From contig NZ_QTJX01000006.1 in assembly GCF_003382275.1 (NCBI RefSeq), positions 62,001 through 126,000 of the forward strand: a stretch of 64,000 nucleotides of DNA. Direction: 5' to 3'. The position numbers were made by a program, and so were the translations under genes. This document shows, piece after piece, positions 26,261 through 41,742 of this stretch. Origin of the DNA: Flagellimonas nanhaiensis. GTDB lineage: Bacteria > Bacteroidota > Bacteroidia > Flavobacteriales > Flavobacteriaceae. Numbering within the stretch: the stretch's first letter is position 1; every line of letters begins with the position of its first letter. The notes beneath the pieces were generated by a model. The model did not search any database. It was given only the letters and a program-made list of their open reading frames with translations, and was not told the DNA's origin.

Positions 26261-26368
26261 AAGGTTAAATTTTAATTGAGTTAGTAATTTTCCTGAATTC
26301 ATCCTTTGGGCAGAAAAGACAAGTTCGCGGACAAAAATGAAGGACAACATCAATAAGAATACTATCAA

Positions 26369-26729
26369 TCAAAAAGCGATCTATGTTTAATCTACTCAGT
26401 AATTAATGCCCCAAAGTATGGCAATGCTATTGTAGTAATTGAGAGAAATAAACGAACACCAAAGAATTTGTTCCTAAAGCACTTATATGACGAATGAAGG
26501 TCTTATGAATTTTTTAACATTATTGTTTCTGCTGTAGGATATTTGGTTAGGCTCTAAAAGACACATTTTATGGGTTATGACGGAAATAACAATATTTGAT
26601 GAAAAGTAACCAAAGACCTTTTATGTGTTATGAAAGGTAAATAAGGCGGCATAAAAGAGCCATAACATGTCTTGAAGGGTTATCTTGGAAGTATTACCTT
26701 TTTTAAAAATATTGTTTATTAGAGTTTGT
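26369..26729. promoter_or_regulatory. Divergent intergenic region with a direct-repeat pair
   Basis: Contains two nearly identical 15-mers in the same orientation, TTTTATGGGTTATGA (26566-26580) and TTTTATGTGTTATGA (26619-26633). They are 53 bp apart, five helical turns. A related half in opposite orientation lies near 26650-26670. LytTR-type regulators bind direct repeats spaced by whole helical turns, so these could be operator sites for the adjacent regulator, acting on itself, on the SusC operon, or both. This is inference from position and spacing. Confidence 0.4.
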
Positions 26730-27521
26730 ATGATTAATCAATTGATAAAAGTTGTCATTGTTGACGACGAAGTATTGGCTAGGCAACGTATAAGGATTCT
26801 CTTGGCAGACTATGATTTTATTGAGATTGTGGATGAATGTGCCAATGGCAAGAAAGCCATAGAATCGATTAATGTTCATGCTCCCGATTTGGTATTTATG
26901 GATATTCAAATGCCGGACATGTCGGGATTTGATGTTTTGGGTAAATTAAATTCTAATTTGTTGCCGTTGGTGATATTTATTACTGCTTTCGATTCTTATG
27001 CGATTAAAGCTTTTGATTACTTCACTCTTGATTATCTCGTAAAGCCATTTAGGGATTCAAGGTTTAAGGAATCCCTAGAAAAAGTACTTAAATATTTTGG
27101 TGATTCAGATGGAAAAAATATGATAAAAAGATTGCAACACCTTATCGAAAGTATTCCTTCTGAATCCTTTGATTCAAAAAACGATTCCAAAATCATTCTT
27201 AAATCCGGCTTAAATTATGTTCTAGTTGAAATTGGAAAAATATCCCACATAAAATCCTCAGGGCCTTATATCGAGGTGCTAATGGAAAACGGTAAGAAAC
27301 ATTTACATAGATCATCCATGGCAAATATATTAAAAGAAATAAACCATAAAAGCTTTGTGCAAGTTCATAGATCAACCATTGTAAACCTTGACTACACAAG
27401 CGAAATATCAAGTACCGGTATGGGAGAAATTTTTGTTTTATTGAAAAACGGAGTCAAACTTAACGTTGGAAAAACCTATAAGAAAAGTTTTCTTAAACGT
27501 TTAAACATCAGTGAAAGTTAA
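26730..27521 (+). CDS. LytTR-family response regulator
   Basis: Two-domain regulator. The receiver domain has the acidic pair in IKVVIVDDEVLARQR, the phospho-acceptor Asp in PDLVFMDIQMPDMSGFDV and the Lys in LDYLVKPFRDS. The C-terminal LytTR DNA-binding domain begins near SKIILKSGLNYVLVEIGKI and includes SFVQVHRSTIVNLDYTSEI. The frame opens at 26685, but the receiver homology starts at ATG 26730 (MINQLIKVVIVDDE), which is the chosen start. The kinase gene follows with no gap, so they form a cognate pair. Its position facing the SusC operon suggests control of that operon. Confidence 0.93.
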   Translation: MINQLIKVVIVDDEVLARQRIRILLADYDFIEIVDECANGKKAIESINVHAPDLVFMDIQMPDMSGFDVLGKLNSNLLPLVIFITAFDSYAIKAFDYFTLDYLVKPFRDSRFKESLEKVLKYFGDSDGKNMIKRLQHLIESIPSESFDSKNDSKIILKSGLNYVLVEIGKISHIKSSGPYIEVLMENGKKHLHRSSMANILKEINHKSFVQVHRSTIVNLDYTSEISSTGMGEIFVLLKNGVKLNVGKTYKKSFLKRLNISES

Positions 27522-28631
27522 ATGCCAAAAGTCAGAAAATCAGATTTCGGAATTATTAAAGTTATACTTCTTTTTAACCTCTTACATTCCTTGGTCCTAT
27601 TAGGGCACAATGCCTATTTGAAACATAAGGGATACCTTTTTAATATAATGGAGTGGGGGGACTTTATATTCTTTCAATTTTTCGTGGACTTTATTTTCAG
27701 CTCTATATTCTTTATTGTAATATCTGAGATTGTCGAGAAGTTCATACGGAATGGTGCAAGGAGAATATATGTGGTTTTGTTTCATACCGTGATGATTTCA
27801 CTTTTTACGATACTCATAAAAGTGCCTAATGAGCTCCTATACTTATGGACAAGTGGTAAGGAAATTTCAATCAATCAAGAATATCTAAATGTAGTTTTCT
27901 CAGGAGTTTTAGTATATGTACATAGGGACTTTCTTCTGTACCTTTCCATGATTTTCATAATCCACTTGTTGAACTATCATAAGAAAGAGGAAGAGCAGAA
28001 CAAGAAGGAAGGTGAAATGAGAGAATTATTAATTGCCACCGAACTAAAACAGCTTCAATCAAGTATAAACCCACACTTCTTGTTTAATGCCCTCAACGCG
28101 ATAAGTACCTTAATACGTGAGTCCAACCATAGAGCCAAAAACGCCATAGCAGATTTAGGGGTTTTACTGAACGACATTCTAAACGATGATAGCAGTAACT
28201 ATAACACTATTGAACAAGAAATAGAACTTATCGATAAATATTTGAAAATTATTATGCTTAGATATGGTAACTCCATTCGTTTTACCAAAAAAATCTCACA
28301 AGTTTCTAAAAACATCTTAATACCGCGCTTTATAATCCAACCATTAATTGAGAACGCCATAAAGCACGGTTTTCATGATAGGGAGCAACTGAATCTTTAT
28401 CTAGAGATTAATCAATCAAATAATGTAGAGATAATAGTATCAAACGATGGAATCCCATTTAATTTTTCCAAAATGGTTGATAATCGTGGATTAGGGTTGA
28501 GCAATGTAAAAAAACGTCTTGCACTTCTTTTTCCAGATAGACACGATTTCTCCATTAACAACACAAATAATATGGTCAGGATAACTCTCCGGTTTCCAAT
28601 ATTGAAAAATGATTCAACTACTGGCACATGA
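27522..28631 (+). CDS. LytS/YehU-type sensor histidine kinase
   Basis: Membrane kinase partner of the LytTR regulator. The N-terminal ~160 residues hold four hydrophobic helices (for example FFQFFVDFIFSSIFFIVISE and FLLYLSMIFIIHLLNYH). A short coiled linker rich in Glu and Lys follows. The His_kinase domain contains LQSSINPHFLFNALNAIST with the phospho-His, and the ATPase domain shows IIQPLIENAIKHGF (N-box) and NRGLGLSNVKKRL (G-box). No periplasmic sensor domain of size is visible, so the signal is likely sensed in the membrane. The ATG follows the regulator stop codon directly. Confidence 0.93.
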   Translation: MPKVRKSDFGIIKVILLFNLLHSLVLLGHNAYLKHKGYLFNIMEWGDFIFFQFFVDFIFSSIFFIVISEIVEKFIRNGARRIYVVLFHTVMISLFTILIKVPNELLYLWTSGKEISINQEYLNVVFSGVLVYVHRDFLLYLSMIFIIHLLNYHKKEEEQNKKEGEMRELLIATELKQLQSSINPHFLFNALNAISTLIRESNHRAKNAIADLGVLLNDILNDDSSNYNTIEQEIELIDKYLKIIMLRYGNSIRFTKKISQVSKNILIPRFIIQPLIENAIKHGFHDREQLNLYLEINQSNNVEIIVSNDGIPFNFSKMVDNRGLGLSNVKKRLALLFPDRHDFSINNTNNMVRITLRFPILKNDSTTGT

Positions 28632-28878
28632 AAAATCATTTAAGAAGAAGGATTTTAGAAGTGAGATGACGATAAGGAAGCAACTTTGGGGATATCTATT
28701 ACCAACGAGGTTTTGATTCGAACTGGTAAATGACTTGGCCTATTTAAATATGGAAATTTTGAATCAAATATTATGTGAATCCAAAAGACAACTATTTGTC
28801 TGATGCAAAAATGGTTTCTTAAAATACAGACTTACCGTTCATCTGCTTAGATTGATGAGCGTGATTTGGCAACTCAAG

Positions 28879-30519
28879 ATGAAATGGCTCATTTACATAA
28901 CGCTGTTCTCTTACTGTGGACTTTGGTCCCAGAAAACAATTGATTTACGGTACGAGCCTTTGGATTCCCTGTACCCCAAAGCCGTGGAATTTTGGCGAAT
29001 GGATTCAGACAGCGTATATCCTTATGGAGACGAACTGCTTAGGCGGGCCCGGCTTTCCGGGATACCGAGCCGTTACATCCATGCCTATCATATTCTATCA
29101 TTGATTACTCTGGGAAAAGAATCCCAAAACTTTACTGATAGCCTTTACCAATTGGCAAAATCGACAAAGGATGCCAAATATGTGGCCACTGCCCTTTTTT
29201 TAAAGGGCCGCAACGCCTACGATGCAGGACAGTATAAAAGCTCTTTGGACGAGTACCTAAAATGCAATGAGCTTTTACGGCACGACGTAGACAGTGTACG
29301 ACTGGAAAACTTGGTACGCGACAATATCGGTTTGATCCGTATCCTTGTCGGTGACAACGATGGTGCGGTCAAAATTTATAGGGATCTGTTGCGCTACTAT
29401 GGAGAACGTGACAACAGCGGCCAGAAATATCTTTGGGCATTGTTTTCCTTGGCAGTAGCCCACCACCAGAATGGGGATTTTAGTGTTTCACAACAACTGG
29501 TCCATAAGGGCCTGGGACTGTTGGAAGGAACGGAAAATGGACCCATACCCTATTTCCTTTCGGTCTATGGTGCCAATCACTATGGGATGGGCGATTACCA
29601 GACCGCTATCGCCAATCTCCACAAAGCGAATACCTCGTTCAAAAAGCAGGAGGATGCCATGAGACAGGCCATTGCCCACTACTATTTGGGCAGTGCCCAC
29701 CATGCCCTTGGAAACACGGATAGTACGCTGTACCATATGCAAAGAGTGGATGCCATCTATGAGAAGGACCCCAAAAGCCTGTACCCGTTAACTCGTGGCG
29801 CATGGGAATACCTACTGGGAACCGTTCGCGAAAATGGGGATACTGAGGCTGAGCTACGATATATCTCGAAGCTTCTTGCCATCGACAGCATAATTAGCGG
29901 TAATTTTCGGTATGTCAACCTAAACCTTACCCAAAAGTATGACATGCCCAGATTGGTCAGCGAAAGGAATGCCCTGGTCAACAGATACAGAAGCCGCAAC
30001 CGTCACTATCTAATGGGTCTGGCAATACTGTCGATAGTACTATTGACCTTTTTTATCTTCCGTAAAAGAAGGTCCAAAGACCCAGTGGCCAAAATATCAG
30101 CAGAAAATAATGGGACAGGGAACAAAGTCCGGCAGTCTTCCAAAATGACCATAAGCCCTCACAAGCTCAGTACCATAGCCGACGGCCTTGCTGACCTGGA
30201 GGGGGAACGTTTTCATTTGGAGCTGGGAATCACGGTCAAAAAAACCGCCCGACTGCTCGGGGTCGGAGAAAAACAGCTCTCCATTTATCTGAACAGGCAT
30301 GTGGGCATGACCTTTACCCAGTATGTCAACGGCCTCCGGGTGGAACATTTCCGAAATAGGCTGCGCTCCGATTCCGACTTTGTAAAAACGTACACCTTGG
30401 ATGCAATGGCCCAGGAGTGCGGTTTTAAGAACAACAAATCCCTCAGCAAGGTCTGCAAGCGAAGGCTAGGAAAGACATCTTCGGAATTAGTACGGGAAAG
30501 TAGAAATCCCCTTTTCTGA
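28879..30519 (+). CDS. TPR-containing membrane-anchored AraC-type regulator
   Basis: A one-component regulator with an extracytoplasmic TPR sensor. From ATG 28879 it opens with a signal peptide or anchor (MKWLIYITLFSYCGLWSQ). About 340 residues of TPR-like helical repeats follow (KYLWALFSLAVAHHQNGDFS, AMRQAIAHYYLGSAHHALGN). A transmembrane helix (HYLMGLAILSIVLLTFFIF) comes next, then a basic stop-transfer RKRRSK and a C-terminal AraC-type HTH (KKTARLLGVGEKQLSIYLN, TLDAMAQECGFKNNKSLSKV). The frame also offers ATGs at 28852 and 28855. It directly precedes the RiPP precursor gene, so it is the obvious candidate regulator; related architecture in Bacteroidetes often responds to peptides or starvation. 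First gene with element-like composition. Confidence 0.87.
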   Translation: MKWLIYITLFSYCGLWSQKTIDLRYEPLDSLYPKAVEFWRMDSDSVYPYGDELLRRARLSGIPSRYIHAYHILSLITLGKESQNFTDSLYQLAKSTKDAKYVATALFLKGRNAYDAGQYKSSLDEYLKCNELLRHDVDSVRLENLVRDNIGLIRILVGDNDGAVKIYRDLLRYYGERDNSGQKYLWALFSLAVAHHQNGDFSVSQQLVHKGLGLLEGTENGPIPYFLSVYGANHYGMGDYQTAIANLHKANTSFKKQEDAMRQAIAHYYLGSAHHALGNTDSTLYHMQRVDAIYEKDPKSLYPLTRGAWEYLLGTVRENGDTEAELRYISKLLAIDSIISGNFRYVNLNLTQKYDMPRLVSERNALVNRYRSRNRHYLMGLAILSIVLLTFFIFRKRRSKDPVAKISAENNGTGNKVRQSSKMTISPHKLSTIADGLADLEGERFHLELGITVKKTARLLGVGEKQLSIYLNRHVGMTFTQYVNGLRVEHFRNRLRSDSDFVKTYTLDAMAQECGFKNNKSLSKVCKRRLGKTSSELVRESRNPLF

Positions 30520-30575
30520 AAAGGGCGCCCCTTTCCGAAAAAGGGATGTCCCCTTTCGCGAAAAGTGATTTTTTT
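30508..30575 (+). repeat. Three tandem CCCCTTT/AAAGGG hairpins ending in a T-run
   Basis: Three short inverted repeats with the same arms follow one another every 20-22 bp: CCCTTTT-CTG-AAAAGGG (30509-30525), CCCTTT-N5-AAAGGG (30529-30545) and a weaker CCCCTTT-CGCG-AAAAG (30550-30565) followed by seven Ts. The first overlaps the stop codon of the regulator gene. They may be a compound terminator, or binding sites ahead of the precursor gene, which starts 63 nt further on. Confidence 0.6.
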
Positions 30576-30577
30576 GA

Positions 30578-30609
30578 TTGTGAAAGAAGGGGGGCTTTGG
30601 ATAGCTTTA
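30578..30609 (+). promoter_or_regulatory. Candidate promoter of the RiPP precursor gene
   Basis: TTG at 30578-30580, a 21-nt spacer and TAGCTTTA at 30602-30609 (seven of eight positions of TAnnTTTG). It would give a leader of about 23 nt before ATG 30638. Confidence 0.3.
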
Positions 30610-30637
30610 TCCCGTTCAATCTTAAAATCATATACAA

Positions 30638-30778
30638 ATGAAAAAGCAAAAAAACACTGTGACAGGCAATGACCTGAAATTGGAAACCTTCAAGGTTATG
30701 GAAATGCCCCATCCCGAAAAGATACAGGGCGGTGATGCCGGCTGGACAGTCCGACAGGACAAGGATCGCAATCGTTGA
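30638..30778 (+). CDS. RiPP precursor peptide with double-glycine leader (46 aa)
   Basis: A short gene encoding a 46-residue peptide. The leader (1-32) contains NDLKLETFKVMEMPHPEKIQ and ends in Gly31-Gly32, the cut site of C39-peptidase ABC exporters. The LxLExFxV pattern is like LanB-recognised leaders of Bacteroidetes. The predicted core is DAGWTVRQDKDRNR (33-46): strongly charged, with no Cys and no Ser, and only one Thr (37). It cannot form lanthionine. It lies between the regulator and genes for a subtilase, a C39 exporter and an HlyD adaptor, with a split LanB facing them. The chemistry on this core is unknown. The precursor assignment is inferred from leader, position and partners. Confidence 0.8.
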   Translation: MKKQKNTVTGNDLKLETFKVMEMPHPEKIQGGDAGWTVRQDKDRNR

Positions 30779-30811
30779 TAAAAAAGGGTTAACAAACTTT
30801 AAACAAGACCA

Positions 30812-32437
30812 ATGGTCAATGGAAAACTAATCTTGGTGGTGCTTTCGGTGCTACTTCTACTTAATGGATGTGGTAGTGGGGGCACCTCAGAAATTCCCGA
30901 GGAGGCCGAGCAAACGGGCTGGCAACATTTGGATTTGAAACGCGACTCTATCATTGGCATCAGCCTGGAAAGGGCATATTCCGAACGTGTAAAACCCAAT
31001 GGCAATGAAGTGGTCGTTGCCCTTATCGATAGCCCTTTGGACATCGACCATCCCGACCTCAAGGCTCAAATATGGATCAACGCGGATGAAGTGCCTGACA
31101 ATGGCCTGGATGATGATGGCAACGGCTATGTTGATGATGTGCACGGCTGGAATTTTTTGGGCTATGGTGATGGCCAAACACTGCGCTTTTCGAACTATGA
31201 TTATATCCGGGCCATAAGGCGATTGGAACCGAGGTTTGGGGGAATCGACAGTACAGAAGTGGAACCAAAGGATTCCCTTGAATATAGAATGTACCAAAAA
31301 GCATTGAAGCTAAGAGAAAACGACATACCTGACATCCAGGGGGAACTTGATTATTATTCGGGCCAACTGGAAGTTTTTAATGAATGCACATCGCTGTTTG
31401 AAATGGCCTATGATACCAATTCAGGTCTTTTCAATGGGGCTCTCCTGGATACTTTACAGCCAACGACCGGGCGCCAAAAGGAACTTTTGGAGCAAGTCAA
31501 GGACTATGCCTATTACGGTTGGTATCCCTCGATGATGGAAAGCTTCAAGTGCCAGGGGGAAATGCGAAAGGCCGTCTGTGGAAACATCGACGCCGAGCCA
31601 AGGTCCGTCATTGGTGACGATATTTATAACCTTTTGGACATCCGAGGCCACCATCTAGTGGACGCACCGGAGGGTTGGATCAGCCATGCCACCCAGGTGG
31701 CCGGAATCATGGCCGCGACCCGTGACAACGGCTTTGGTATCAAAGGGGTCAGCAATAGCATCCGTATCATGCCCTTGGTCATCTTTCCGGAGCGGGGCGA
31801 TGAGACCGACAAGGATCTGGCCAATGCCATCCGATATGCGGTGGACAATGGGGCACAGATTATCAATTACAGCCATGGACGCTATTATGTGGAACGGCCG
31901 GATTTTATCTGGGAGGCCCTGGAATATGCCGAGCAGCATGGCGTTCTGATGGTCACCGCTGCGGGAAATACGCCCGTGGACATCGACAGGCCCGAGGATT
32001 CGCCCTACCCAAGGGACAACCCGGATAACGGGGAAGAGCGTCTGACCAACCTGATGAAGGTGGCGGCCTCCGCAAAGAAATTGGAATGGGTCAAGCCTTC
32101 ATGGGCGAGTTATGGGAAGAAGAATGTGGACCTGTTCGCACCGGGACGACATTTGCTCACCACCAATTCAGGGGAGCGCCCCTACTTTACCATCGGGGGT
32201 TCATCACTGGCATGTGCGCTCACCTCCGGGGTGGCTGCCCTGTTGTGGTCCCAATATCCCGATTTGGACCACCAACAGATAAAGACCATTCTCATGCTGT
32301 CCGGTACGCGAATCGAGCAGGAGGTGAAAATGGGGGAAGACATCACTGTGCCTTTTTCGGAACTATCAAGGACCGGACGTATTTTAAATGCCCATGATGC
32401 CCTTTTATTAGGGCGTGAGGCCAGTACCCTAGACTGA
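30812..32437 (+). CDS. Lipoprotein subtilisin-like S8 peptidase of the RiPP cluster
   Basis: Subtilase with the complete triad: Asp73 in VVVALIDSPLD, His292 in ISHATQVAGIM and Ser465 in IGGSSLACALTSGVAALL, where GSSLA replaces the usual GTSMA. An oxyanion Asn lies in MVTAAGNTP. A lipoprotein signal (LILVVLSVLLLLNGC, Cys20) places it in the periplasm or on the outer membrane. Between Asp and His there is an insertion of roughly 150 residues, much larger than in subtilisin, partly charged helix. It begins 33 nt after the precursor stop codon and its stop overlaps the exporter start (TGATG), so it belongs to the operon. It may trim the exported peptide or serve immunity; which one is not shown. 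Confidence 0.9.
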   Translation: MVNGKLILVVLSVLLLLNGCGSGGTSEIPEEAEQTGWQHLDLKRDSIIGISLERAYSERVKPNGNEVVVALIDSPLDIDHPDLKAQIWINADEVPDNGLDDDGNGYVDDVHGWNFLGYGDGQTLRFSNYDYIRAIRRLEPRFGGIDSTEVEPKDSLEYRMYQKALKLRENDIPDIQGELDYYSGQLEVFNECTSLFEMAYDTNSGLFNGALLDTLQPTTGRQKELLEQVKDYAYYGWYPSMMESFKCQGEMRKAVCGNIDAEPRSVIGDDIYNLLDIRGHHLVDAPEGWISHATQVAGIMAATRDNGFGIKGVSNSIRIMPLVIFPERGDETDKDLANAIRYAVDNGAQIINYSHGRYYVERPDFIWEALEYAEQHGVLMVTAAGNTPVDIDRPEDSPYPRDNPDNGEERLTNLMKVAASAKKLEWVKPSWASYGKKNVDLFAPGRHLLTTNSGERPYFTIGGSSLACALTSGVAALLWSQYPDLDHQQIKTILMLSGTRIEQEVKMGEDITVPFSELSRTGRILNAHDALLLGREASTLD

Positions 32438-34632
32438 TGGGCCTGTTCGGTTTCAGTCGAAGGGCCTTTCCCTTTGCCCTACAATGGGATGCCATGGACT
32501 GCGGTCCGGCCTGTCTGGAGATGGTGGCTCAATTTTATGGCCTGCGGACGGACCGTGCCCAGCTCCGGCATTGGAGCCACCTGGAACACAATGGATCTTC
32601 TTTTGCCGGATTGAAGGAAGCTGCTGAACAATTGGGTTTCGATGCCCTTCCCGTTGAGATAAGCCACCGGGAGCTTCGCAAGGAAGCTCCCTTGCCCTGT
32701 ATCCTACACTGGGAGAACAAACATTTTGTGGTACTTTATGAGTTCCAAAAGGGAAAGGTGGTCGTCGGCGATCCTGCGCAGGGTGTGCTAAAACTTTCCT
32801 TTGACGCTTTTTTGGGGCATTGGCTTCCAGAAAGGAAGGCCGAAAAGGGCTTTGCACTCCTGTTGGAACCGCTTCCCGAAACAGAACCCATATACCCACG
32901 GGAGAAGCATATCAGGGGATTTTCCCGCTTATGGGGCTATTTCAAGGGCTATCGGAAAGTGGGCCTGCAATTGGGGATTGGGCTGCTCTTCGGCAGTCTG
33001 GCTCAGCTGGCCCTGCCCTTTCTGACCCAGGCCCTGGTGGACTACGGGGTGCAGTTCCAGGACCTCCATTTTGTGCATATCGTACTGTTGGCCCAGGTGA
33101 TCTTTTTCGTTTCCCTCTCCTCGGTAGAGATCATCAGGGGATGGATTCTGTTGCATCTGACCCAAGAGGTCAACCTGCGGTTGGTGTCGGATTACCTACG
33201 GCGGTTGCTCCGTTTGCCCATCCCTTTTTTTGCCTCCAAGCATTCCGGTGACCTTATCCAGCGGATACAGGACAATAGAAAGGTACAGGAGTTTGTCTCC
33301 TCCCAAAGCCTGGGTACGCTCTTCAGCACGGTAACGCTCTTGGCATTTGGGATTGTTTTTTGGTACTATAACATCCAACTGGCCCTGGTCTTTGTGATGA
33401 TGTTGTTGGGCTATGGGCTTTGGTCCCTTTACTTTCTCAAAAAACAGTTGCGTTGGGACCACCAACGCTTCCAACGGGAATCCGAGACCCAAAGGACCAT
33501 CTGGCAGCTTGTCCGCGGCATTGTAGCCATTAAGGACAACCTGTCGGAAAAAAAACATCGGACATTATGGGCCAAACTGCAGCGCAAACTCTTCAAGGTC
33601 CAGCATGCCCAACTTGCATTGGTACAAAAACAACGGTATGGTGCCCTTTTCCTGCACCAACTGGGATCGTTGTTGTTGCTGTTCCTTTCCGCCCGTTTGG
33701 TCATCGAGGGCCAATTGACCCTGGGGGCCATGCTCTCCATCCAGTTCATCATCGGGCAGGTGGGGCTGCCCTTGGGCCAGATTGCCCAGTTCTTTGTGGA
33801 GTTGCAGGCGGCCCGATTGAGCCTCGAACGGATGGAAGAGGTCCATGCCCACCCCGTGGAGGAAATGAAGGGAGCCACCCCGAATGCAAAGGGGAGTATT
33901 CACATCGAAGACCTCACCTTCCGGTACGGCCCTAAATCCCGGCCCTTGGCCCTGGACAGGGTCAGCTTTACCATAGCCCATGGGAAAACGACCGCATTGG
34001 TGGGGGCCAGTGGCAGTGGGAAGACCACGCTGCTGAAACTGCTCTTGGGACACTATCCGGATTACGGGGGAAGGATACGATTGGAAAGGACCGATTTACG
34101 GCATGTTTCCAAAGGGGAATGGCGCAAGGCCTGCGGTGCGGTGATGCAGGAGGGCTTTCTCTTTGAGGACACGTTGCTGTCCAACATTACCGAATCCAAA
34201 CAGGGACGGATCGACGAAGGGCGTCTGCAGGAAGCGATACAGTTTTCCCATCTGGAAGAGATGGTCAATGGACTCCCCTTGGGCCTACAGACCCGAATCG
34301 GGGCGGATGGTGCATCGCTCAGTGGCGGGGAACGGCAACGGGTACTATTGGCCCGTGCGCTCTACAAACGACCCAGTTTCTTCTTTTTGGACGAGGCGAC
34401 CAGTGCCATGGATACCCAACTCGAACGCAAGGTAATGCAAGGCTTACATGGATTCTACAAAGGACGGACCGTACTGGTCATTGCCCATCGGATGAGCACC
34501 GTGCGCAATGCCGACCTTATTGTGGTGCTGGACAAGGGTATGGTGGTGGAACTGGGAACCCACAGGGAACTGGTGGCCCAAAAGGGACATTACTATGGAC
34601 TGGTACAATACCAATTGGAGTTGGGCGGATGA
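32437..34632 (+). CDS. Peptidase-containing ABC transporter (C39 / PCAT type)
   Basis: Bifunctional exporter that cuts double-glycine leaders and pumps the released peptide. The C39 peptidase is at 1-125, with Cys22 in AMDCGPACLEMVAQFYG, His97 in NKHFVVLYEF and Asp112 in VGDPAQG. A six-helix membrane domain spans about 160-440. The ATPase domain at about 480-720 has Walker A GASGSGKTTLL, signature LSGGERQRVLLARAL and Walker B FFFLDEATSAMD. At 731 residues it has the full length of the family. Its first base is shared with the subtilase stop codon, and its own stop overlaps the HlyD start (ATGA), so translation is coupled. Its intact peptidase matches the Gly-Gly of the precursor upstream. Confidence 0.96.
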   Translation: MGLFGFSRRAFPFALQWDAMDCGPACLEMVAQFYGLRTDRAQLRHWSHLEHNGSSFAGLKEAAEQLGFDALPVEISHRELRKEAPLPCILHWENKHFVVLYEFQKGKVVVGDPAQGVLKLSFDAFLGHWLPERKAEKGFALLLEPLPETEPIYPREKHIRGFSRLWGYFKGYRKVGLQLGIGLLFGSLAQLALPFLTQALVDYGVQFQDLHFVHIVLLAQVIFFVSLSSVEIIRGWILLHLTQEVNLRLVSDYLRRLLRLPIPFFASKHSGDLIQRIQDNRKVQEFVSSQSLGTLFSTVTLLAFGIVFWYYNIQLALVFVMMLLGYGLWSLYFLKKQLRWDHQRFQRESETQRTIWQLVRGIVAIKDNLSEKKHRTLWAKLQRKLFKVQHAQLALVQKQRYGALFLHQLGSLLLLFLSARLVIEGQLTLGAMLSIQFIIGQVGLPLGQIAQFFVELQAARLSLERMEEVHAHPVEEMKGATPNAKGSIHIEDLTFRYGPKSRPLALDRVSFTIAHGKTTALVGASGSGKTTLLKLLLGHYPDYGGRIRLERTDLRHVSKGEWRKACGAVMQEGFLFEDTLLSNITESKQGRIDEGRLQEAIQFSHLEEMVNGLPLGLQTRIGADGASLSGGERQRVLLARALYKRPSFFFLDEATSAMDTQLERKVMQGLHGFYKGRTVLVIAHRMSTVRNADLIVVLDKGMVVELGTHRELVAQKGHYYGLVQYQLELGG

Positions 34633-35921
34633 AGGACACACAATTCCATAGTCTGGAAGAATATCGCAAATCCCATGAAGGGATGCCCGGCGCATTGCTA
34701 AGCTATGGGACCTATGCCATTGTCGTTTCCACGATGCTTTTGTTATTGATTGGCCATTGGATCTCATACCCCGATGTAGTATCAGGGCCGGTAAAGGTGA
34801 TGGGGAGCAATCCCGTGGTATACCTCTCACCCCAACTGGACGGCCGCATCGGTCAGCTTTTCTGCAGGTCGGGGGATATGGTGATGGAAGGGCAGGTCCT
34901 CTTGGAACTGGACAATCCCGCACAGTATGCCGACATCCAAAGGGTACGGCAATGGCTCGATACCTTGGGGCTAGCGGCAAGCGATACCCTTCCACCTGAC
35001 CATATGCATTTCCCAAAGGTGATGCAGCTCGGCAAGGTACAGCCCTACTTTTGGGCGTTTTTGGAACAATGGAAGCAAAAACTGCTATGGCAACGGTTGC
35101 GACCCGACGACATGCACGGCTCCATTACCCGGGACCGTACGTCCCACAATTCGCGATGGCTATTGGATTCCGAACGTTTGGAGCGTGAACTTGAAAATAC
35201 CGTCAGATTGGGGGCCAAAGATGTGGAACGGTACAAGACCCTTTACCAAAAAGGGGTGGTCAGCACCTCGGAATATGAGGAGCGGCAACGGCAACAGCTT
35301 CTTCGAAAACAGGAACTTACCGCGCTGCGCCAGCGTATGGCGGAGACCCGGTTGTTTATCCTTTCCCAGGAGGATGGACGGCTTCTTCAGGGACTGGAAC
35401 TCTCCCGGGAACAGGGGCTGTTGGAGGACAGGCTCCGCCATACCCGTTCGGAACTGCTGGGTGCCTTGGAAGCGTATGAACGAGATTATGTATTGGTGGC
35501 CCCAACATCCGGAACGGTCAATCATTTGCAACCCTTGGCACTCCGTCAACAGGTATTTGAGGGGAAGCCCTTGTTTGCCATATTTCCCCAAAAAAACGAA
35601 TCGGGCATCGGGCAGATGGAGGTAACGGCCATCAACAAGGGCAAGGTCCGAAAAGGGCAAAAGGTGCTGTTGCAACTGGAAAACTATCCCACATCCGAAT
35701 ATGGCACTTTGGAGGCCCAAGTCCAGGGGGTGAACCAAGTTCCCCATCCAGAAACGGGTAGCTACGGAATCACATTGCGAATACCATCCATGGAGACCAG
35801 CTATGGAAGAACCCTCCCATTGGACGGCGTGTCTTTGGGCACAGGGCGCATCGTTACCGAGGAGATGAGCTTGTTGCAACGGCTCTTCCGAGGTATTCGG
35901 GCACAGTTCCAACGGAACTGA
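34629..35921 (+). CDS. HlyD-family periplasmic adaptor of the peptide exporter
   Basis: Membrane-fusion protein that links the ABC exporter to an outer-membrane TolC-type pore. After a short cytoplasmic tail comes a membrane helix (YAIVVSTMLLLLIGHWI, about 26-42). A lipoyl half follows (VYLSPQLDGRIGQLFCRSGD, VMEGQVLLELDN). A long coiled hairpin (about 150-280) includes LYQKGVVSTSEYEERQRQQL, and the second lipoyl half is ERDYVLVAPTSGTVNHLQPL. The C-terminal beta-barrel holds GKVRKGQKVLLQLENYP. Length 430 residues is normal. No TolC gene is in the cluster, so a host or distant one must be used. It ends 5 nt before the convergent split LanB genes. Confidence 0.92.
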   Translation: MKDTQFHSLEEYRKSHEGMPGALLSYGTYAIVVSTMLLLLIGHWISYPDVVSGPVKVMGSNPVVYLSPQLDGRIGQLFCRSGDMVMEGQVLLELDNPAQYADIQRVRQWLDTLGLAASDTLPPDHMHFPKVMQLGKVQPYFWAFLEQWKQKLLWQRLRPDDMHGSITRDRTSHNSRWLLDSERLERELENTVRLGAKDVERYKTLYQKGVVSTSEYEERQRQQLLRKQELTALRQRMAETRLFILSQEDGRLLQGLELSREQGLLEDRLRHTRSELLGALEAYERDYVLVAPTSGTVNHLQPLALRQQVFEGKPLFAIFPQKNESGIGQMEVTAINKGKVRKGQKVLLQLENYPTSEYGTLEAQVQGVNQVPHPETGSYGITLRIPSMETSYGRTLPLDGVSLGTGRIVTEEMSLLQRLFRGIRAQFQRN

Positions 35922-35926
35922 GTCAA

Positions 35927-36745
35927 TTACTTGCCCATCCGTGCCATCTGTGAGGCGTAGGCCCGGTCAAGAAACTCATACAGCAGGTATTCGAATTGGC
36001 CATGGTCCGTCAAAAAGCATTTGTTGACGTGCATGTGGAGGATATCCCTGATGATCTGGGCCTTGGAGGTTTGGGTATCTCCCTCGATGTCAGATAGGCC
36101 CTTGGCCATTGTTTGTCCCAAGGGGTATTGCCTTTCAACGTTGATTTTTTCGGTATCCTGGGGCAGAATGATTTTAGGATTCAATTCCCGATAGGCCTTC
36201 GAAATGGCCTTTCGGGAACGCTCGGAAAACTCCAGACGATCCTTAAAGAATTTTTGTTGTTCCTTGATAAACCTGTGTTGCTTCGCACAATCAGGATAGA
36301 CGGCTGCCAATAGCCGGGGCCATAGATTGGCCAATCGCAGCAACCTCTTTTCCTCGGACAGCCGTTCCCCAAAAAGGCCGTGCGCATGCACACTTTGAAG
36401 ATGGAAGAGCTGAAGGACCGTTTCCATATTGAGGACCCCGTAGCGTTCAAATTCCGGGACATAGGGCTTCCACTGGATTTTCCAAAGCTTTCGAGGCTCC
36501 AGATAGGGTTGCATATGTGAGATGATATGTTCCTTGATGACCTGTTGTTTCAAGGAATGCACCAATATCCGGAACCGCATTTGGGGCAGACTGTCCCAAT
36601 ACCGGACAAAGAACCAGGAAGCGATCCATGGCCGAAAGGCATCGGTCCGAACAATGGGCAGTAGGTCCCGCATCCCTATATCATGGGTCATTTGGGGCGT
36701 GCCCCAAATCTCCAGAGAAAGCCAATGCGGGGCGTTATTTCCCAT
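35927..36745 (-). CDS. Thiopeptide-type biosynthesis protein (SpaB_C, LanB elimination domain)
   Basis: Corresponds to the C-terminal domain of class I lanthipeptide dehydratases, which removes glutamate from glutamylated Ser/Thr to make dehydroamino acids. From ATG 36745 the start MGNNAPHWLSLEIWG fits; the open frame to 36865 adds 40 residues without homology. The signature is RPWIASWFFVRYWDSLPQMRFRI, equal to the family pattern FxRYxDPxxHLRxR, though with Ser-Leu-Pro-Gln-Met where most have Pro-xx-His-Leu. It starts 11 nt inside the end of the LanB N-domain gene, so the two are coupled. A split of this kind is typical of thiopeptide clusters. With 272 residues it is a normal stand-alone version. 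Confidence 0.87.
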   Translation of the reverse strand: MGNNAPHWLSLEIWGTPQMTHDIGMRDLLPIVRTDAFRPWIASWFFVRYWDSLPQMRFRILVHSLKQQVIKEHIISHMQPYLEPRKLWKIQWKPYVPEFERYGVLNMETVLQLFHLQSVHAHGLFGERLSEEKRLLRLANLWPRLLAAVYPDCAKQHRFIKEQQKFFKDRLEFSERSRKAISKAYRELNPKIILPQDTEKINVERQYPLGQTMAKGLSDIEGDTQTSKAQIIRDILHMHVNKCFLTDHGQFEYLLYEFLDRAYASQMARMGK

Positions 36746-38798
36746 CACCGGTTGTTTTTTTAAGGAAGGAAAACTGGAGCTCACTGGCATAGGCATTGCC
36801 ATGGGTATCCCTGACCACCGGCCCGCCAGGGGGCAGGTATTCCTTGAAGACCAAAGGCCGATCACCGGGATGCCGCTTTATGAAGATTTGCATAAGCCTC
36901 AGATCTTTGGTATCCAACACCAAGCGTTGGTCGTCAAGGGACCAACATATTTTTTTTGGCAGGTCGTGATGCTGGCAGAATTTAGGCCACTCGGTTTTAA
37001 AAGTGTTCCGGCAATGGATCATTGCTTTTAGTTGGTCAATGGATTCTTGGGCAAAATGCCATTGTCGTTTGGCAACCAACGCATCCCTGTACAGCACCCG
37101 CGGAAGCCGTAACGTGCTCTCCGGCAACGGTCCCCAATCAAAGTGGGCATAACGGCGTTTCCCACCAAATTGGTGGTCCCCCAGAAAACGGTAGAGTGCC
37201 AAAGGACTTCGGTGGTGGTCGTGGGCAGTGGTCAGATATGGCTGGACAGGCCTGCGCGATGTACCTTCAATCAGGACCAGACCCTCCTCGGTGTATTGCA
37301 GCCACAGGTCATCCAAGGAAATAGGATTGGTCTCGTCCTTTCGCCTTCCATTGTTCAAATGGAGGATATGCATTCGCAACATCGTACGGCAGGTCACAAG
37401 GGATTCCTTTGCTGGGGGAAGATAGGCCACTTCCATCGAAAGGGCATTGTTGCCCCTTTCTTCAAAATTGCAAATCTGTTCTGTCCATTTTTTGAATGCC
37501 ACGTTTCCAAAACCGTGTCTGGCGTGCAACACGGCGGCCGAGGCACCGCCAAAGGAGAGCGGATGGCAAAATGTTTTTTCGCCCCAACGGACCCATTCCA
37601 CCAGACCAAAAAAGGAACGGCCAAAACCAAAATCGGGCGGCACAAACGACTTTAGGTCCTCATCCTGTAATTGGATAGTATCGTTTTCAGGGTTGGCTTT
37701 CCATTGGGCCCAAAGCCATTCCTGGGCGGGAGTGTATTTCGGTGGATTGCAGTTTTGTTTTGGTGCAAGTCCAAAGGGCCTGATAAAGTTGTCGCCTTGG
37801 CGGTACTGACCAATGGGATAGCCCAGGCCATATTCACCATCCATGGCATCCACCAACCGCACTTTTTCGGTTCCGAATAGGGTATGGAATGCCTTGGTAA
37901 ACTCAGCGTAATCCGAATTTTGTTTGCCATTGGAAAAGAGGCCGGAAACCTTCAGGGCATCCCTGAGCTGATGCTTCAGGCGATGGTCCAATTTGGCCCG
38001 TTGGAATTGAGGATAGCTATTTATAAAAATGTTCATTTTATTCCTTTCGCTCTCATCTTCGTGTACGGTGATATGGGGATGGAACACCGAGGGAGCCGTT
38101 TCGGAAAGCAATATCTTGCTGTCAACCAGCTGTTGTAAATAGGCGTTGGACAGTGCCCGGGAATGTCCCAGATTTGAAAGGGTGGCAACCAACGCCGGTT
38201 TGGTGACCCCATTTTGTGCCCTTTCCAGCAGTCGTTCAAGTGCCTTGGTCCGAGCCACTTCCCGGAGACTTGGGTTTTTTCCGGATTCGTTGAAATCCCA
38301 ATAGCGCCAGCAGTCCTTTCCTGAATAGAGCATCGGATTTGGGAACCAAAGGGTCTTTTCATCGTTCGGTCCTAGTCCATCGGAATCCCTTTTACATTTC
38401 AACTTGATCTCGGATCTTTCCACTGAACCACGGATGTTTTGGAAGCACAATTCAGTAGTGTCCGCGAAACGCCCTAGGGCGGGCCCGGCGAACAGACCAA
38501 AGGGCGTTGCCCTGGTACGGCTGCGGATATGGTATTTCATCAAAGTGTACCATAGGCCATCTGTTTTTTTGGGGTCATTGTTCTCCAACCATCTCTCGAT
38601 TTCATTTGATAGTCCCGGGGCAGCATGTTGCACGGCGCTACGGAAAGGGATTTCGGACCACAACTTACCAATACCAGTTAGGGTAGGTTCCCATTCGGGA
38701 TTGGGGCCTTCGCTTCCCAAGGGTAAAAAGGGGATACGCACAATAAAGGTGTCGTCAATGGAATAATGGTCGAAAAGATTGCTGTCGCTTTGATCCAC
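36735..38798 (-). CDS. Lantibiotic dehydratase, glutamylation domain (LanB N-terminal part)
   Basis: Corresponds to the tRNA-Glu-dependent glutamylation half of LanB; some relatives instead act as peptide aminoacyl-tRNA ligases. The opening DDTFIVRIPFLPL and the hallmark HIRSRTRATPFGLFAGPALG (90-109) are diagnostic. Later VSxxxD-type regions are replaced by MDGEYGLGYPIGQYRQGDNF and YRFLGDHQFGGKRRYAHFDWG. The gene begins with GTG at 38798; a stop lies ten codons upstream and no ATG is available, so GTG is likely real. At 687 residues it is the full N-domain without the elimination domain, which is encoded by the overlapping next gene. It faces the exporter operon. Confidence 0.9.
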   Translation of the reverse strand: MDQSDSNLFDHYSIDDTFIVRIPFLPLGSEGPNPEWEPTLTGIGKLWSEIPFRSAVQHAAPGLSNEIERWLENNDPKKTDGLWYTLMKYHIRSRTRATPFGLFAGPALGRFADTTELCFQNIRGSVERSEIKLKCKRDSDGLGPNDEKTLWFPNPMLYSGKDCWRYWDFNESGKNPSLREVARTKALERLLERAQNGVTKPALVATLSNLGHSRALSNAYLQQLVDSKILLSETAPSVFHPHITVHEDESERNKMNIFINSYPQFQRAKLDHRLKHQLRDALKVSGLFSNGKQNSDYAEFTKAFHTLFGTEKVRLVDAMDGEYGLGYPIGQYRQGDNFIRPFGLAPKQNCNPPKYTPAQEWLWAQWKANPENDTIQLQDEDLKSFVPPDFGFGRSFFGLVEWVRWGEKTFCHPLSFGGASAAVLHARHGFGNVAFKKWTEQICNFEERGNNALSMEVAYLPPAKESLVTCRTMLRMHILHLNNGRRKDETNPISLDDLWLQYTEEGLVLIEGTSRRPVQPYLTTAHDHHRSPLALYRFLGDHQFGGKRRYAHFDWGPLPESTLRLPRVLYRDALVAKRQWHFAQESIDQLKAMIHCRNTFKTEWPKFCQHHDLPKKICWSLDDQRLVLDTKDLRLMQIFIKRHPGDRPLVFKEYLPPGGPVVRDTHGNAYASELQFSFLKKTTGDGK

Positions 38799-38983: not shown

Positions 38984-39823
38984 ATGGAGGTTTCCACCAT
39001 CATTTCGGAATTTGACGAAGCCCTTGGCAATCTGCGCCAGGAAGGGCTCTCGGTGCTGGAACGTGCGAATAAGGGAATCGGCCTTTGCAGGAAGACCCTG
39101 GGCCTATTGCGTAACGAAGTGGTAGCCAAGGGCTTTCCAAACGAAATTTCGGAAATCCATTTTTTTAAGGAAATCAAACCGATTCCCATGCAACATTTGG
39201 TATACTATACCGAAGTCCACAAGTGCGAACTGAAACTGCCCAGGCTTGGACTAAAATCCCAACTGAAGTTTCTCCAAATAGAAAGGAAGCGTCTCAACGC
39301 CTTTTTTGGGTCGCACTTGGAATTCCATCGTTATCTATTGGAAGGGCGAACGGGCCGGGACACCCATTATTTTACTAGGGAAAAGGGAATGGTTCATCCC
39401 ATTCGGGAGGGTTATTCCTATCGGTACGACAACGAGTTCGAGACCTCCCATGACATGCTCTTGGCCACTTTCAAGGGCCTTGAACGGTATGGCAATTATC
39501 TAAAAGAAATGGAACACCGGTTGACAGCCTTGGGAACGGGAGTTACCAGAACCCCCATGGATGGAGCCCCTGCCTTTTTGTTCACCTTGCCGGATACCGC
39601 CGCTGTGGAGCTGGCCTATGCGCTTCGAGAGGCAAGGGCGATCAACCACGGGGATTTCGAGATCAAGGCCTTTGTGGAATATTTCGGGAAGGTGTTCGGC
39701 TTTGAGGTCAAAGAGCCCTATATGCTGTTGCACCAGATTGCCAACCGAAAGAAGGAACGGGCCAAATATCTACGGAGGTTGCTCGATGCCTTCCTTGGCT
39801 TTTTGGACGGAAGGGATGCCTGA
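38984..39823 (+). CDS. rteC: RteC-family regulator
   Basis: Member of the RteC family, the activator of excision genes in tetracycline-inducible Bacteroides conjugative transposons. The protein is 279 residues. Family-like features include the N-terminal helical part (EVSTIISEFDEALGNLRQEG), the EIHFFKEIKPIPMQHLVYYTE segment near 57-77, the HYFTREKGMVHPIREGYSYR stretch and the C-terminal ANRKKERAKYLRRLLDAF. No RteA/RteB two-component genes are in the window, so how it is induced is open. It lies just upstream of two palindromic repeats and the HTH gene, and at the right edge of the RiPP cargo, marking the start of the element backbone. Confidence 0.88.
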   Translation: MEVSTIISEFDEALGNLRQEGLSVLERANKGIGLCRKTLGLLRNEVVAKGFPNEISEIHFFKEIKPIPMQHLVYYTEVHKCELKLPRLGLKSQLKFLQIERKRLNAFFGSHLEFHRYLLEGRTGRDTHYFTREKGMVHPIREGYSYRYDNEFETSHDMLLATFKGLERYGNYLKEMEHRLTALGTGVTRTPMDGAPAFLFTLPDTAAVELAYALREARAINHGDFEIKAFVEYFGKVFGFEVKEPYMLLHQIANRKKERAKYLRRLLDAFLGFLDGRDA

Positions 39824-39824
39824 G

Positions 39825-39856
39825 TTTTTATATAGTTGTTATCTACTATATAAAAA
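39825..39856. promoter_or_regulatory. Perfect 12-bp inverted repeat, copy 1 (candidate operator)
   Basis: TTTTTATATAGT, spacer TGTTATCT and ACTATATAAAAA form a perfect dyad directly after the rteC stop codon. The stretch from 39829 recurs at 39956-39984 with only two differences in 29 bp, in the same orientation. Confidence 0.65.
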
Positions 39857-39955
39857 CCAGATTGTCCGATTTGTGACATTTTTTCAGAACGATTATGATG
39901 ATATTTTTATTGAAGTAGGTCATTTCGGTCTGCCATTTGGCGGATTGGTAAAAAC

Positions 39956-39984
39956 TATATAGTCGTTATATACTATATAAAAAC
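39956..39984. promoter_or_regulatory. Inverted repeat, copy 2 (candidate operator)
   Basis: TATATAGT-CGTTATAT-ACTATATA followed by AAAAC. It repeats copy 1 almost exactly, 127 bp further on, and lies 74 bp before the HTH gene. The pair probably binds a dimeric regulator, such as RteC or the HTH protein. Confidence 0.6.
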
Positions 39985-40057
39985 TTCGCTTAGGGATAGT
40001 CAAATTTGTACCGAAAACAACAAGGACCCTCGGGTTCCCATAAAAAAACAAAGACCA

Positions 40058-40345
40058 ATGCCCACATCCATCGTTACCACAGAAGACCTTGAGAAGTTCC
40101 AGCAGGAGCTCCTTGGGGAGATCGGACGGCTTTTGGACGAAAGGACAAAGCTGGCCAAACCCAAAAACTGGTTGCGCTCGACGGAGGTGATGGACCATCT
40201 GAAGATCAGCCATGCTACTCTCCAGAATCTGAGGAACAACCGGACCATTCCCAGCTATAAGATCGAGGGACTGATCTACTATGACCGTGAGGAGATAGAT
40301 GCGATCATCGCCGAAAACCGGTTGTTCCCCATAATCCAACAGTAG
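40058..40345 (+). CDS. Helix-turn-helix protein, excisionase/MerR-like
   Basis: A 95-residue DNA-binding protein. The N-terminal helix (TTEDLEKFQQELLGEIGRLL) is followed by a winged HTH: WLRSTEVMDHLKISHATLQN, then LRNNRTIPSYKIEGLIYYDR and EEIDAIIAEN. This is the HTH_17/excisionase-like type found in nearly all Bacteroidetes mobile elements, where it controls excision or transfer genes. It ends one codon before the next gene (TAG-ATG), so they are co-transcribed. The two palindromes upstream are its probable control region. Confidence 0.88.
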   Translation: MPTSIVTTEDLEKFQQELLGEIGRLLDERTKLAKPKNWLRSTEVMDHLKISHATLQNLRNNRTIPSYKIEGLIYYDREEIDAIIAENRLFPIIQQ

Positions 40346-41017
40346 ATGAACTATATCCAGCACTTGAACGCTCGTTTTGTGGATTTCTATGGGGATGACC
40401 GACTCCATCCCGGACATTTCTCCCTCTACATGGCCCTGTTCTTTTATTGGAACCTGCACCGCTTTCCAGAGGAGTTTTATGCCAATCGTGCCGAGTTGAT
40501 GACCATGGCCAAGATCGGTTCCAAGTCCACCTACCACCGCCTCCTCAAAGAGTTACAGGATTTTGGCTATATCGAATACCTTCCCGCCAAAAGTCCCCAC
40601 GAACTTTCAAGGGTCGCACTATCCCAAAACTGTACCGATAACAGTACACTGATGGGACGCACCCGTACCATATTTGGGACGTACCGTCCCAAATCTGTAC
40701 CGGACACCTTATATAGAAAACAATACAAACCCAATAAACGCTCTTTGGGAGCAAAGCCCAGAAGCCAATTGGAAGTATTGGATTCTTTTAAGGAAAAAAA
40801 GTATGATCTGGAAGAGGCCTTCAAATTTTTTAACCACTACCAGGCCATCGGTTGGAAAATCGGCGGCAAGGTCACCATCCAGGATTGGAAGGCCGCGGCC
40901 GACAATTGGATGCTAAAGGCGCGGGAACTGGCCCGTGAAAGGAAGGAAAAAAGGGCTTTGGGCAGCGGGGACCATTTGATCACCACAACGGAAAAGGACT
41001 ATGGCGAACCCCTCTAA
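40346..41017 (+). CDS. Winged-helix protein, replication-initiation-like
   Basis: A 223-residue protein. The N-terminal half is a predicted winged helix (FSLYMALFFYWNLHRFPEEF, TMAKIGSKSTYHRLLKELQD, FGYIEYLPAKSP), similar to phage O-protein or DnaD-type replication proteins. The C-terminal part (EEAFKFFNHYQAIGWKIGGK, then IQDWKAAADNWMLKARELA) resembles a DnaD/DnaB_2 helical domain. The following gene is a DnaC-like ATPase overlapping by 17 bp, so the pair looks like an initiator-plus-loader set for replication of the excised element. This role is inferred; the pair is common in Bacteroidetes elements but poorly studied. Confidence 0.75.
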   Translation: MNYIQHLNARFVDFYGDDRLHPGHFSLYMALFFYWNLHRFPEEFYANRAELMTMAKIGSKSTYHRLLKELQDFGYIEYLPAKSPHELSRVALSQNCTDNSTLMGRTRTIFGTYRPKSVPDTLYRKQYKPNKRSLGAKPRSQLEVLDSFKEKKYDLEEAFKFFNHYQAIGWKIGGKVTIQDWKAAADNWMLKARELARERKEKRALGSGDHLITTTEKDYGEPL

Positions 41018-41657
41018 GATAACCGAAGGCAGCGTGGTCTATTCCCTTGGGGAACTCAGCGGCAACCGGGTGGACTACGATTTCAAGAAAATCATCATCT
41101 ACCTAGAGGCCAAGGGACGGTTGCTCTTCGGTAGGCAGTTCAAGATCTACGATGAGGACAGGGAAATCCTCTTCAAACTTTGCAGCTATGCGATCCGTGA
41201 CTTCGGGACCTGCCGCAAATTGGGCATCGACCCCAACAAGGGCATCCTGCTCTCCGGGCCGGTGGGCTGTGGTAAGACCAGTCTGATGAAATTGCTCCGG
41301 TATGTGACACCACATTTCAAACCCTACGAAATGATGCCCTGCCGCAATATCGTTTTCGGTTTCAACCATATCGGCCACCGCATCATCGAGGATTATGGGG
41401 ATGGGAGGTTCTATTGTTTTGACGATTTGGGCATCGAGCCGATGGGAAGACATTTCGGAAAGGACTGTAACGTGATGGGGGAAATCTTGCTTTCCCGGCA
41501 CGAGCTGTTCCTGAATTCGGGCCTCCGCACCCATGCCACCACCAACTTGAACGCCCAGGAACTGGAGGAACGCTACGGAGCGCGTGTCCGAAGTCGGATG
41601 CGGCAGCTGTTCAACTTGGTGGCCTTTGACAAGGACTCCAAGGATAAACGCACCTAG
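41001..41657 (+). CDS. DnaC-like AAA+ ATPase
   Basis: A 218-residue P-loop ATPase resembling helicase loaders. Walker A is ILLSGPVGCGKTSLMKLL near 76-93 and Walker B is FYCFDDLGIEPMG near 135-147. Sensor and arginine-finger regions are RTHATTNLNAQELEERYG and ARVRSRMRQLFNLV. The frame overlaps the upstream gene by 17 bp and probably depends on its translation. Together they would load a host helicase on element DNA after transfer or excision. The alternative is an IstB-type transposition helper, but no transposase is near. Confidence 0.82.
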   Translation: MANPSKITEGSVVYSLGELSGNRVDYDFKKIIIYLEAKGRLLFGRQFKIYDEDREILFKLCSYAIRDFGTCRKLGIDPNKGILLSGPVGCGKTSLMKLLRYVTPHFKPYEMMPCRNIVFGFNHIGHRIIEDYGDGRFYCFDDLGIEPMGRHFGKDCNVMGEILLSRHELFLNSGLRTHATTNLNAQELEERYGARVRSRMRQLFNLVAFDKDSKDKRT

Positions 41658-41742
41658 GGATCATTGATCCTTTTATTATAAAAATTAAAACTGAAACAAT
41701 AAGGATTTCCGGCAATTAAGGAATTACAAAACAAAATGAACA

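Follow-up and report, generated by a model that had tools for sequence, protein, structure and literature searches.

What can a LanB enzyme pair make of a peptide that offers it a single threonine, when no cyclase is found beside it? The question is raised by a gene cluster of the flavobacterium Flagellimonas nanhaiensis, which lies in a 64,000-nucleotide stretch of its genome (assembly GCF_003382275.1, contig NZ_QTJX01000006.1, positions 62,001 to 126,000 of the forward strand; hereafter the window). A sequence-only reading of this stretch had described a cluster for a ribosomally synthesized and post-translationally modified peptide (RiPP), with a 46-residue peptide carrying a Gly-Gly (GG) leader, an S8 protease, an ABC exporter with a C39 peptidase domain, an HlyD adaptor and a LanB protein in two parts, and we located all of these where it had placed them. 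The LanB pair is encoded on the minus strand, end to end with the plus-strand genes from regulator to HlyD:

28852..30519, plus strand: TPR-AraC regulator (Pfam TPR_12 and HTH_18)
30638..30778, plus strand: precursor peptide, 46 aa (open reading frame whose homolog occupies the corresponding slot of locus L167, see below)
30812..32437, plus strand: S8 (subtilase) protease (PF00082, E-value 5.5e-38; lipobox-like N-terminus, intact catalytic residues)
32437..34632, plus strand: ABC exporter with C39 peptidase domain (PF03412, E-value 1.7e-32; PF00664; PF00005)
34629..35921, plus strand: HlyD-type adaptor (PF13437)
35927..36745, minus strand: LanBC, the LanB elimination-domain protein (Lant_dehydr_C), 272 aa (PF14028, E-value 1.3e-33)
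36735..38798, minus strand: LanBN, the LanB glutamylation-domain protein (Lant_dehydr_N), 687 aa (PF04738, E-value 1.3e-58)

The answer that we favour, at about an even chance for the whole, is a linear, ring-free peptide with one dehydrobutyrine at Thr37 that is exported, trimmed and probably sensed by the adjacent regulator. That the product is a linear dehydrated peptide is likely; a signalling role, suggested by gene order, hydropathy and fold, we hold at somewhat less than even. Of the options that the sequence-only reading raised, the evidence best supports its first, a linear charged peptide with one dehydrobutyrine.

The gene boundaries allow some choice. The regulator open reading frame spans 28852-30519, and an internal ATG at 28879, where the earlier reading began the gene, may be the start codon. 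LanBC is given from the ATG at 36745, which makes it overlap LanBN by 11 bases; a longer open reading frame extends to 36865 and begins at a GTG within the upstream gene. An alignment of 35 S8 sequences, which includes the window protein and a second copy from the same genome, has the catalytic residues D73, H292, N386 and S465 in all 35, and a regular expression detects a lipobox-like motif in 31 of them. The exporter retains its C39 residues (the Cys in DAMDCGPAC, the His in LHWENKHF and the Asp in VGDPAQG), and the two features of double-glycine export, namely a GG-ended leader and an intact C39 peptidase exporter, are both present.

The precursor peptide and its conservation

The precursor consists of the leader MKKQKNTVTGNDLKLETFKVMEMPHPEKIQGG (residues 1-32, with GG at residues 31-32) and the core DAGWTVRQDKDRNR (residues 33-46). 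As the sequence-only reading had it, the 14-residue core contains no Cys, no Ser and a single Thr, and this Thr37 is the only ordinary LanB target in it. Using a leader model built without the window's own leader, which favours protease-type leaders, no other of the 411 ATG-initiated open reading frames of 25-150 aa in the window outscored the peptide, and no second precursor was thus detected; its own score was weak (8.1 bits, E-value 0.061), and one of 20 shuffled windows also reached 8.1 bits. The leader score by itself is not convincing for a peptide gene. We accept the gene because of its slot between the regulator and the S8 gene and because a homolog occupies the same slot in locus L167, from a second genome of the genus (G1126).

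L167 contains the whole cluster in the same gene order, at identities to the window of 68% (S8), 66% (ABC exporter), 52% (regulator), 45% (HlyD), 43% (LanBC) and 41% (LanBN). Its slot peptide has the leader MKKSEEKKKHEDLKLETFKIMELSRPEKIQGG and the core GDGGWTIRKDRDM; over 31 codons from two hand-chosen blocks, the nonsynonymous divergence between the two peptide genes (dN) is 0.16 and the synonymous divergence (dS) 1.57. The two cores thus share GWT[VI]R[QK]D[KR]D, a motif with one Thr and without Cys or Ser that is conserved under purifying selection, and the 46-residue gene has the conserved counterpart on which the earlier reading had staked its case. In two further genomes of the genus, the slot encodes the cores DGGGDTVKPPKKSRGCFPPKR (L168) and GGGDGGGDTVKTGGVSKACFPPKK (L169), with a similar G-x-T-V-K element and a Ser/Cys-bearing tail that is not seen in the window type. 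The 46-aa peptide matched no family in Pfam, NCBIfam or PHROGs.

Whole-genome searches for LanC covered the F. nanhaiensis genome and 23 relatives. LanC (PF05147) had no match in the own genome, which is 99.99% complete, and it was not found in genomes G1126 or G1146; the same PF05147 search registers in 1 of 14 control genomes. The own genome encodes one LanBN and one PF14028 (SpaB_C-type) protein, and G1126 likewise has one PF14028 protein. Since neither LanC nor a second SpaB_C-type enzyme was found in the genome and the core has only one Thr, the product is not a lanthipeptide or a thiopeptide, which agrees with the earlier conclusion.

A recurrent class of LanB loci without LanC

Among the 397 genomes sampled from the family, 35, the own genome included, have a relative of the window LanBN (E-values up to 1e-3); among 71 from the genus, 15 do (E-values up to 1e-10). 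A search of the genome contig collection with the window LanBN alone returned none; a plasmid search retrieved distant LanBs only (best 24.5%), and among the matches listed from an S8 search of viral contigs there were two S8 loci and no match to the other queried proteins. We assembled 107 loci, distinct by their LanBN protein, from the best 80 of 518 hits of an alignment-based search and from further genomes. Counts from these loci cover about 10 kb or less on each side, and LanC, peptidases and the regulator were called by tblastn above 50 bits with queries taken from these same loci, by which remote versions may be missed.

In 98 of the 107 loci LanBN has the size of a split protein; in the other nine it exceeds 900 aa and is fused. 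A split LanB is therefore the rule in these loci, those with LanC included, and not the oddity for which the sequence-only reading took it. The loci sort into 46 with LanC only, 33 with an S8 or S9 protease only, four with both and 24 with neither (Fisher P 4e-8); LanC and the protease largely exclude each other. Those with neither include some short contigs and two loci with an S15-type peptidase (L104 by Pfam, L097 by similarity to L104); in L104, from Chryseobacterium, the S15 peptidase occupies the slot. Hydrophobic N-termini were found in all seven S9 or S15 proteins inspected. Of the four loci that combine LanC and a protease, three are LanC loci from Kordia or its tree neighbours, in which the S8 match is 3.9-7.1 kb from LanB and has no regulator directly upstream, and the fourth, from Aquimarina, has its S9 match 3.2 kb away. 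Two variations on the cluster content were observed: L058 and L067/L074 have three tandem S8 protease genes beside one called peptide, and weak ATP-grasp matches lie near the LanB cluster in L031 (5657-6622, MvdD/RimK-like) and L103 (5015-6013, glutathione-synthetase-like), where there may be a second RiPP system.

The LanBN tree separates a set of 38 rows, 35 LanC and three unlabelled, from a set of 41 rows with 28 S8/S9, 11 unlabelled and two LanC (99 in the Shimodaira-Hasegawa-like approximate likelihood ratio test, SH-aLRT, for each), and six Chryseobacterium S9/S15 rows form a set outside both. With L167-L169 included, the window joins L167 (support 100) inside seven all-S8 rows (96), which nest in 23 rows, 20 of them S8/S9 and none LanC (96). 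A first tree had joined the window LanBN to a Sphingobacterium row by a branch of 2.7; this was a long-branch join that disappeared once L167-L169 were added, and we discarded it.

The protease-type cores, 36 in all, lack Cys in 15 cases and carry one in 17 and two in four, against between one and five in 21 LanC-type cores (Mann-Whitney P 1.2e-9; 2.6e-8 with the maximum per locus). These cores were drawn from 32 of the 35 S8/S9/S15 loci of the 107 (the window's by slot) and 15 of the 50 LanC loci, plus L167-L169, which are not among the 107, with a leader model made from 15 protease-type leaders that under-samples LanC-type precursors. L096 and L113 have no called peptide, L119 repeats L098, and neither group includes the two cores from unlabelled loci, each of which has one Cys. 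Thr-Ile or Thr-Val, the latter seen in the WTV of the window, occurs 21 times in the 36 protease-type cores versus 11.2 expected (P 0.0034) and four times versus 10.6 in the LanC-type cores; we do not rely on this enrichment, which was tested post hoc and without the four slot-read cores falls to 17 versus 11.3 (P 0.044). The window cluster belongs to this recurrent LanC-less class with Cys-poor cores.

The regulator and a possible pathway

The regulator is present in all 22 S8 loci, all 11 S9 loci, 11 of the 50 LanC loci and nine of 22 unlabelled loci. Of the 39 loci that have an S8, S9 or S15 peptidase, 31 have the regulator gene directly upstream of the peptidase gene and on the same strand, and 28 of these 31 have a called GG peptide in the gap between the two; the window peptide scores under the cut and was assigned by its slot. 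Four Chryseobacterium loci have the regulator gene pointing away, with the peptide between the regulator and peptidase genes. A TPR-AraC regulator gene also adjoins a GG-leader peptide gene in the LanC-containing loci L057, L062, L120 and L140; this pairing may be wider than the LanC-less class. Elsewhere in the own genome, regulator paralogs are weak (E-value 7e-13 and worse), with no cluster gene above 50 bits around the paralog locus L159; the other S8 copy adjoins an M1-like peptidase (identified by eye) and other genes, and neither a LanB nor a GG peptide was noticed near it.

The structural model of the regulator, with a mean predicted local distance difference test score (pLDDT) of 87.7, has a signal peptide-like N-terminal helix, a TPR solenoid to residue 328, a long helix at 331-407 and an AraC domain. 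A membrane-span-like stretch was detected by hydropathy between the TPR and helix-turn-helix parts in 53 of 56 regulators and inside the TPR part in none of the 56; in the window protein this stretch is at residue 385, with a hydropathy of 2.23 over 19 residues. Structural comparison by VIA-align places the TPR part close to NprX-bound NprR (Z 25.1, 4.1 Å over 304 residues) and to Rap-pheromone complexes (Z 23-24). TPR folds are widely alike, and the match is compatible with peptide binding without being proof of it.

What is observed are the genes, their order and the conservation of the peptide and of key enzyme residues; the following pathway may be proposed. The leader would dock on LanBN, and LanBN would attach an aminoacyl group to Thr37 as an ester, with glutamate as the group expected from the family; LanBC, a separate protein, would then eliminate the ester to leave dehydrobutyrine, with no cyclase step thereafter. 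The C39 exporter, as its intact domains suggest, would cut after GG32 and export the core together with HlyD, and the S8 protease, by its lipobox-like N-terminus, would trim the exported core outside the cytoplasm. Finally, the adjacent TPR-AraC protein would read the peptide signal through a periplasmic TPR part and switch on genes through its AraC domain.

The LanB pair

The essential residues of MadB, as listed in an excerpt of PMC12241602, can largely be traced in the window pair. By alignment, LanBN R92, R96, T98 and R427 are the counterparts of MadB Arg89, Arg93, Thr95 and Arg483, and D320, invariant in the set, is kept as well. In LanBC, a motif comparison pairs R57/R59, R101 and H237, all kept, with MadB Arg822, Arg864 and His1005. 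Foldseek ranks MadB, NisB and MibB nearest to the structural model of LanBC (pLDDT 86.8), with pyridine synthases behind them; VIA-align gives NisB Z 20.0, TsrL 19.9 and TbtD 18.9, and does not separate eliminases from pyridine synthases.

Alternatives and how they fare

Several observations weigh against a linear dehydrated peptide read by the regulator, or narrow its reach. With regard to the class, shared ancestry means that the above P values are overstated, and the LanC/protease label needs as few as four changes on the tree. The 17 one-Cys and four two-Cys cores could in part be ring-closed, and "no ring" is firm for the Cys-free cores only. LanC genes can also reside elsewhere in a genome: G1125, which has the S8-type locus L168, carries two on other contigs, and among nine S8-type genomes searched two have LanC (G350 and G671) and seven do not. 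With regard to the regulator, it is not confined to protease loci, as its presence beside LanC shows; the N-terminal hydropathy of the window protein is 1.77, just below the cut of 1.8 passed by 50 of the 56, and the top structural match of its TPR part is a chain of the CRL2-APPBP2 complex (Z 25.9), with LGN at 24.0. With regard to the enzymes, no counterpart of MadB Asp128 could be identified in the window LanBN, and the pair is the most diverged of the set. In a comparison of 98 LanBN rows below 800 aa and 95 LanBC rows, 22 of 71 conserved LanBN positions and 13 of 34 conserved LanBC positions are replaced in the window (set medians 1 and 0). The otherwise invariant LanBC residues H55, E111, E170 and R249 are among those replaced; as changes of the sub-lineage we count H55Q, E170R and R249G in LanBC, and F428H, beside R427, and H459Y in LanBN. 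The otherwise invariant H526 is additionally lost in L167 alone. The LanB pair might thus be inactive, or use another donor or chemistry.

The alternative that survives best, though we consider it unlikely, is a bacteriocin-like role: the linear dehydrated peptide would target other bacteria, and the regulator would do no more than control its expression. The enzymes, exporter and leader type are as in LanC-containing loci, and the cluster is carried on a conjugative element, both of which would suit such a product; however, the core is short and charged, the precursor adjoins the TPR regulator gene in most protease-type loci, and no recognisable immunity gene is present from the regulator to LanB in the window. 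It is because of the missing immunity gene and the adjacency of receptor and peptide that we favour a signal over a bacteriocin.

Less probable still is a degenerate LanB pair in this sub-lineage, or one that takes its aminoacyl group from another donor, with an unmodified or differently modified peptide being exported. The replacements counted above are what recommends this view, and many of them, including LanBC H55Q, E170R and R249G and LanBN F428H, are common to the window and L167; they therefore look like an old change and not recent decay. Yet both frames are open in two genomes despite 41-43% identity, and the mapped eliminase residues as well as LanBN R92, R96, T98, D320 and R427 are kept in both the window and L167.

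We regard as very improbable a chemistry of the peptide aminoacyl-tRNA ligase (PEARL) type, in which a LanB-like ligase adds an amino acid to the C-terminus of the peptide, an option that the sequence-only reading had included. Pearlins did emerge from LanC-less clusters with Cys-free precursors, which resemble the present one, but their enzymes are described in the available text of PMC11002830 as short LanBs with a glutamylation-like domain only and no eliminase; here a PF14028 partner adjoins LanBN in both the window and L167 (genome G1126), retaining the mapped key residues and closest by Foldseek to LanB elimination domains.

A pyritide- or thiopeptide-like ring made by a [4+2] enzyme is the most remote prospect: pyritides (e.g., MroBCD) likewise arise from a split LanB pair without LanC and from a Cys-free core (PMC9247985, PMC11002830, both in excerpt), and VIA-align puts the LanBC model level with or near pyridine synthases and TsrL, but the pathway, so far as those excerpts describe it, needs two Ser and an additional IPR023809 enzyme, whereas this core has no Ser, the genome has one PF14028 protein, and Foldseek ranks eliminases first.

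Mobile-element setting and neighbouring genes

The cluster has a G+C content of 51%, versus 38% in the flank at 1-28000, and is followed by genes of a conjugative element:

38984-50713: conjugative element genes (RteC, HTH_17, TraG P-loop, TraM, DUF4138), G+C near 49%

L167 is bordered by the same conjugation-associated genes, three of them 83-89% identical to those of the window, and the cluster is therefore cargo of a conjugative element in both genomes. Identity between the two drops to 50-55% in RteC and other nearby genes, so the LanB pair is not alone in diverging fast.

Further along, at 51787-56709 on the minus strand, an SRAP peptidase, a DnaE-type polymerase without an exonuclease-domain match and a Y-family polymerase (IMS) together resemble an SOS mutagenesis cassette within the element. 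At 58619-61369, also on the minus strand, a protein with DACNG, DACNH and DAC (diadenylate cyclase-like) domains adjoins a PLD-family protein that also matches RE_NgoFVII; the two may serve defence or signalling. The region 22967-28631, directly upstream of the cluster, encodes a TonB-dependent receptor followed by a LytTR response regulator and a histidine kinase.

Relation to known systems and significance

Class I lanthipeptides are known from Bacteroidota, pinensin being one of them. Clusters for such peptides include Chm of Chryseobacterium and Rui of Runella, according to the available part of PMC9993889. The window cluster resembles these systems in its LanB enzymes, with both the glutamylation (PF04738) and the elimination (PF14028) domain, and the LanC loci that we examined have GG-type leaders and in many cases a C39-ABC exporter and HlyD; unlike them, the present class has an S8, S9 or S15 peptidase in place of LanC, and cores with 0-2 Cys, none in the window. 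The RRNPP systems, such as NprR-NprX and Rap-Phr, comprise a receptor gene followed by a short propeptide gene, with export and proteolysis of the product, and their cytoplasmic receptor binds the re-imported peptide. Here too a receptor-like gene is followed by a short peptide gene, and the product would be exported and cut; the TPR part resembles NprR and Rap, though also an APPBP2 complex chain and LGN. In contrast, the regulator seems by hydropathy to span the membrane and bears an AraC domain, the peptide is encoded beside LanB, and the host is Gram-negative. Linaridins are linear peptides with dehydrobutyrine and no lanthionine; the product proposed here would share these traits, with different dehydration enzymes being used in linaridins.

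The open-access literature that we searched yielded no description of the LanC-less protease class. Pearlins and pyritides are earlier finds from LanC-less, Cys-free clusters (PMC11002830, in excerpt). The lanthipeptide survey PMC7268733 takes LanC as its starting point, as stated in its available portion, and LanC-anchored mining of this kind is therefore blind to these clusters. As excerpted, PMC10352776 reports LanB to be absent from the Bacteroidales genomes screened and points to a possible pheromone role of TPR genes; despite this, we observed LanB loci with LanC in Bacteroidales records (L123, L127, L147 and L149, from Prevotellaceae, Salinivirgaceae, Bacteroides and Dysgonomonas).

We tentatively suggest, with more doubt than confidence, that the cluster represents a Gram-negative pheromone system found in many Flavobacteriia, in which a cyclase-free LanB pair would make a linear peptide with a single dehydroamino acid, a dedicated exported serine peptidase (S8, S9 or S15) would process it and a membrane-spanning TPR-AraC protein would read it in the periplasm; here it would reside on a conjugative element, with one sub-lineage having rebuilt the surroundings of its LanB active sites. 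If this is true, LanB enzymes would also serve a cyclase-free route to linear dehydropeptides, and the Bacteroidota would possess a signalling system based on a modified peptide, with its receptor, protease and exporter encoded together.

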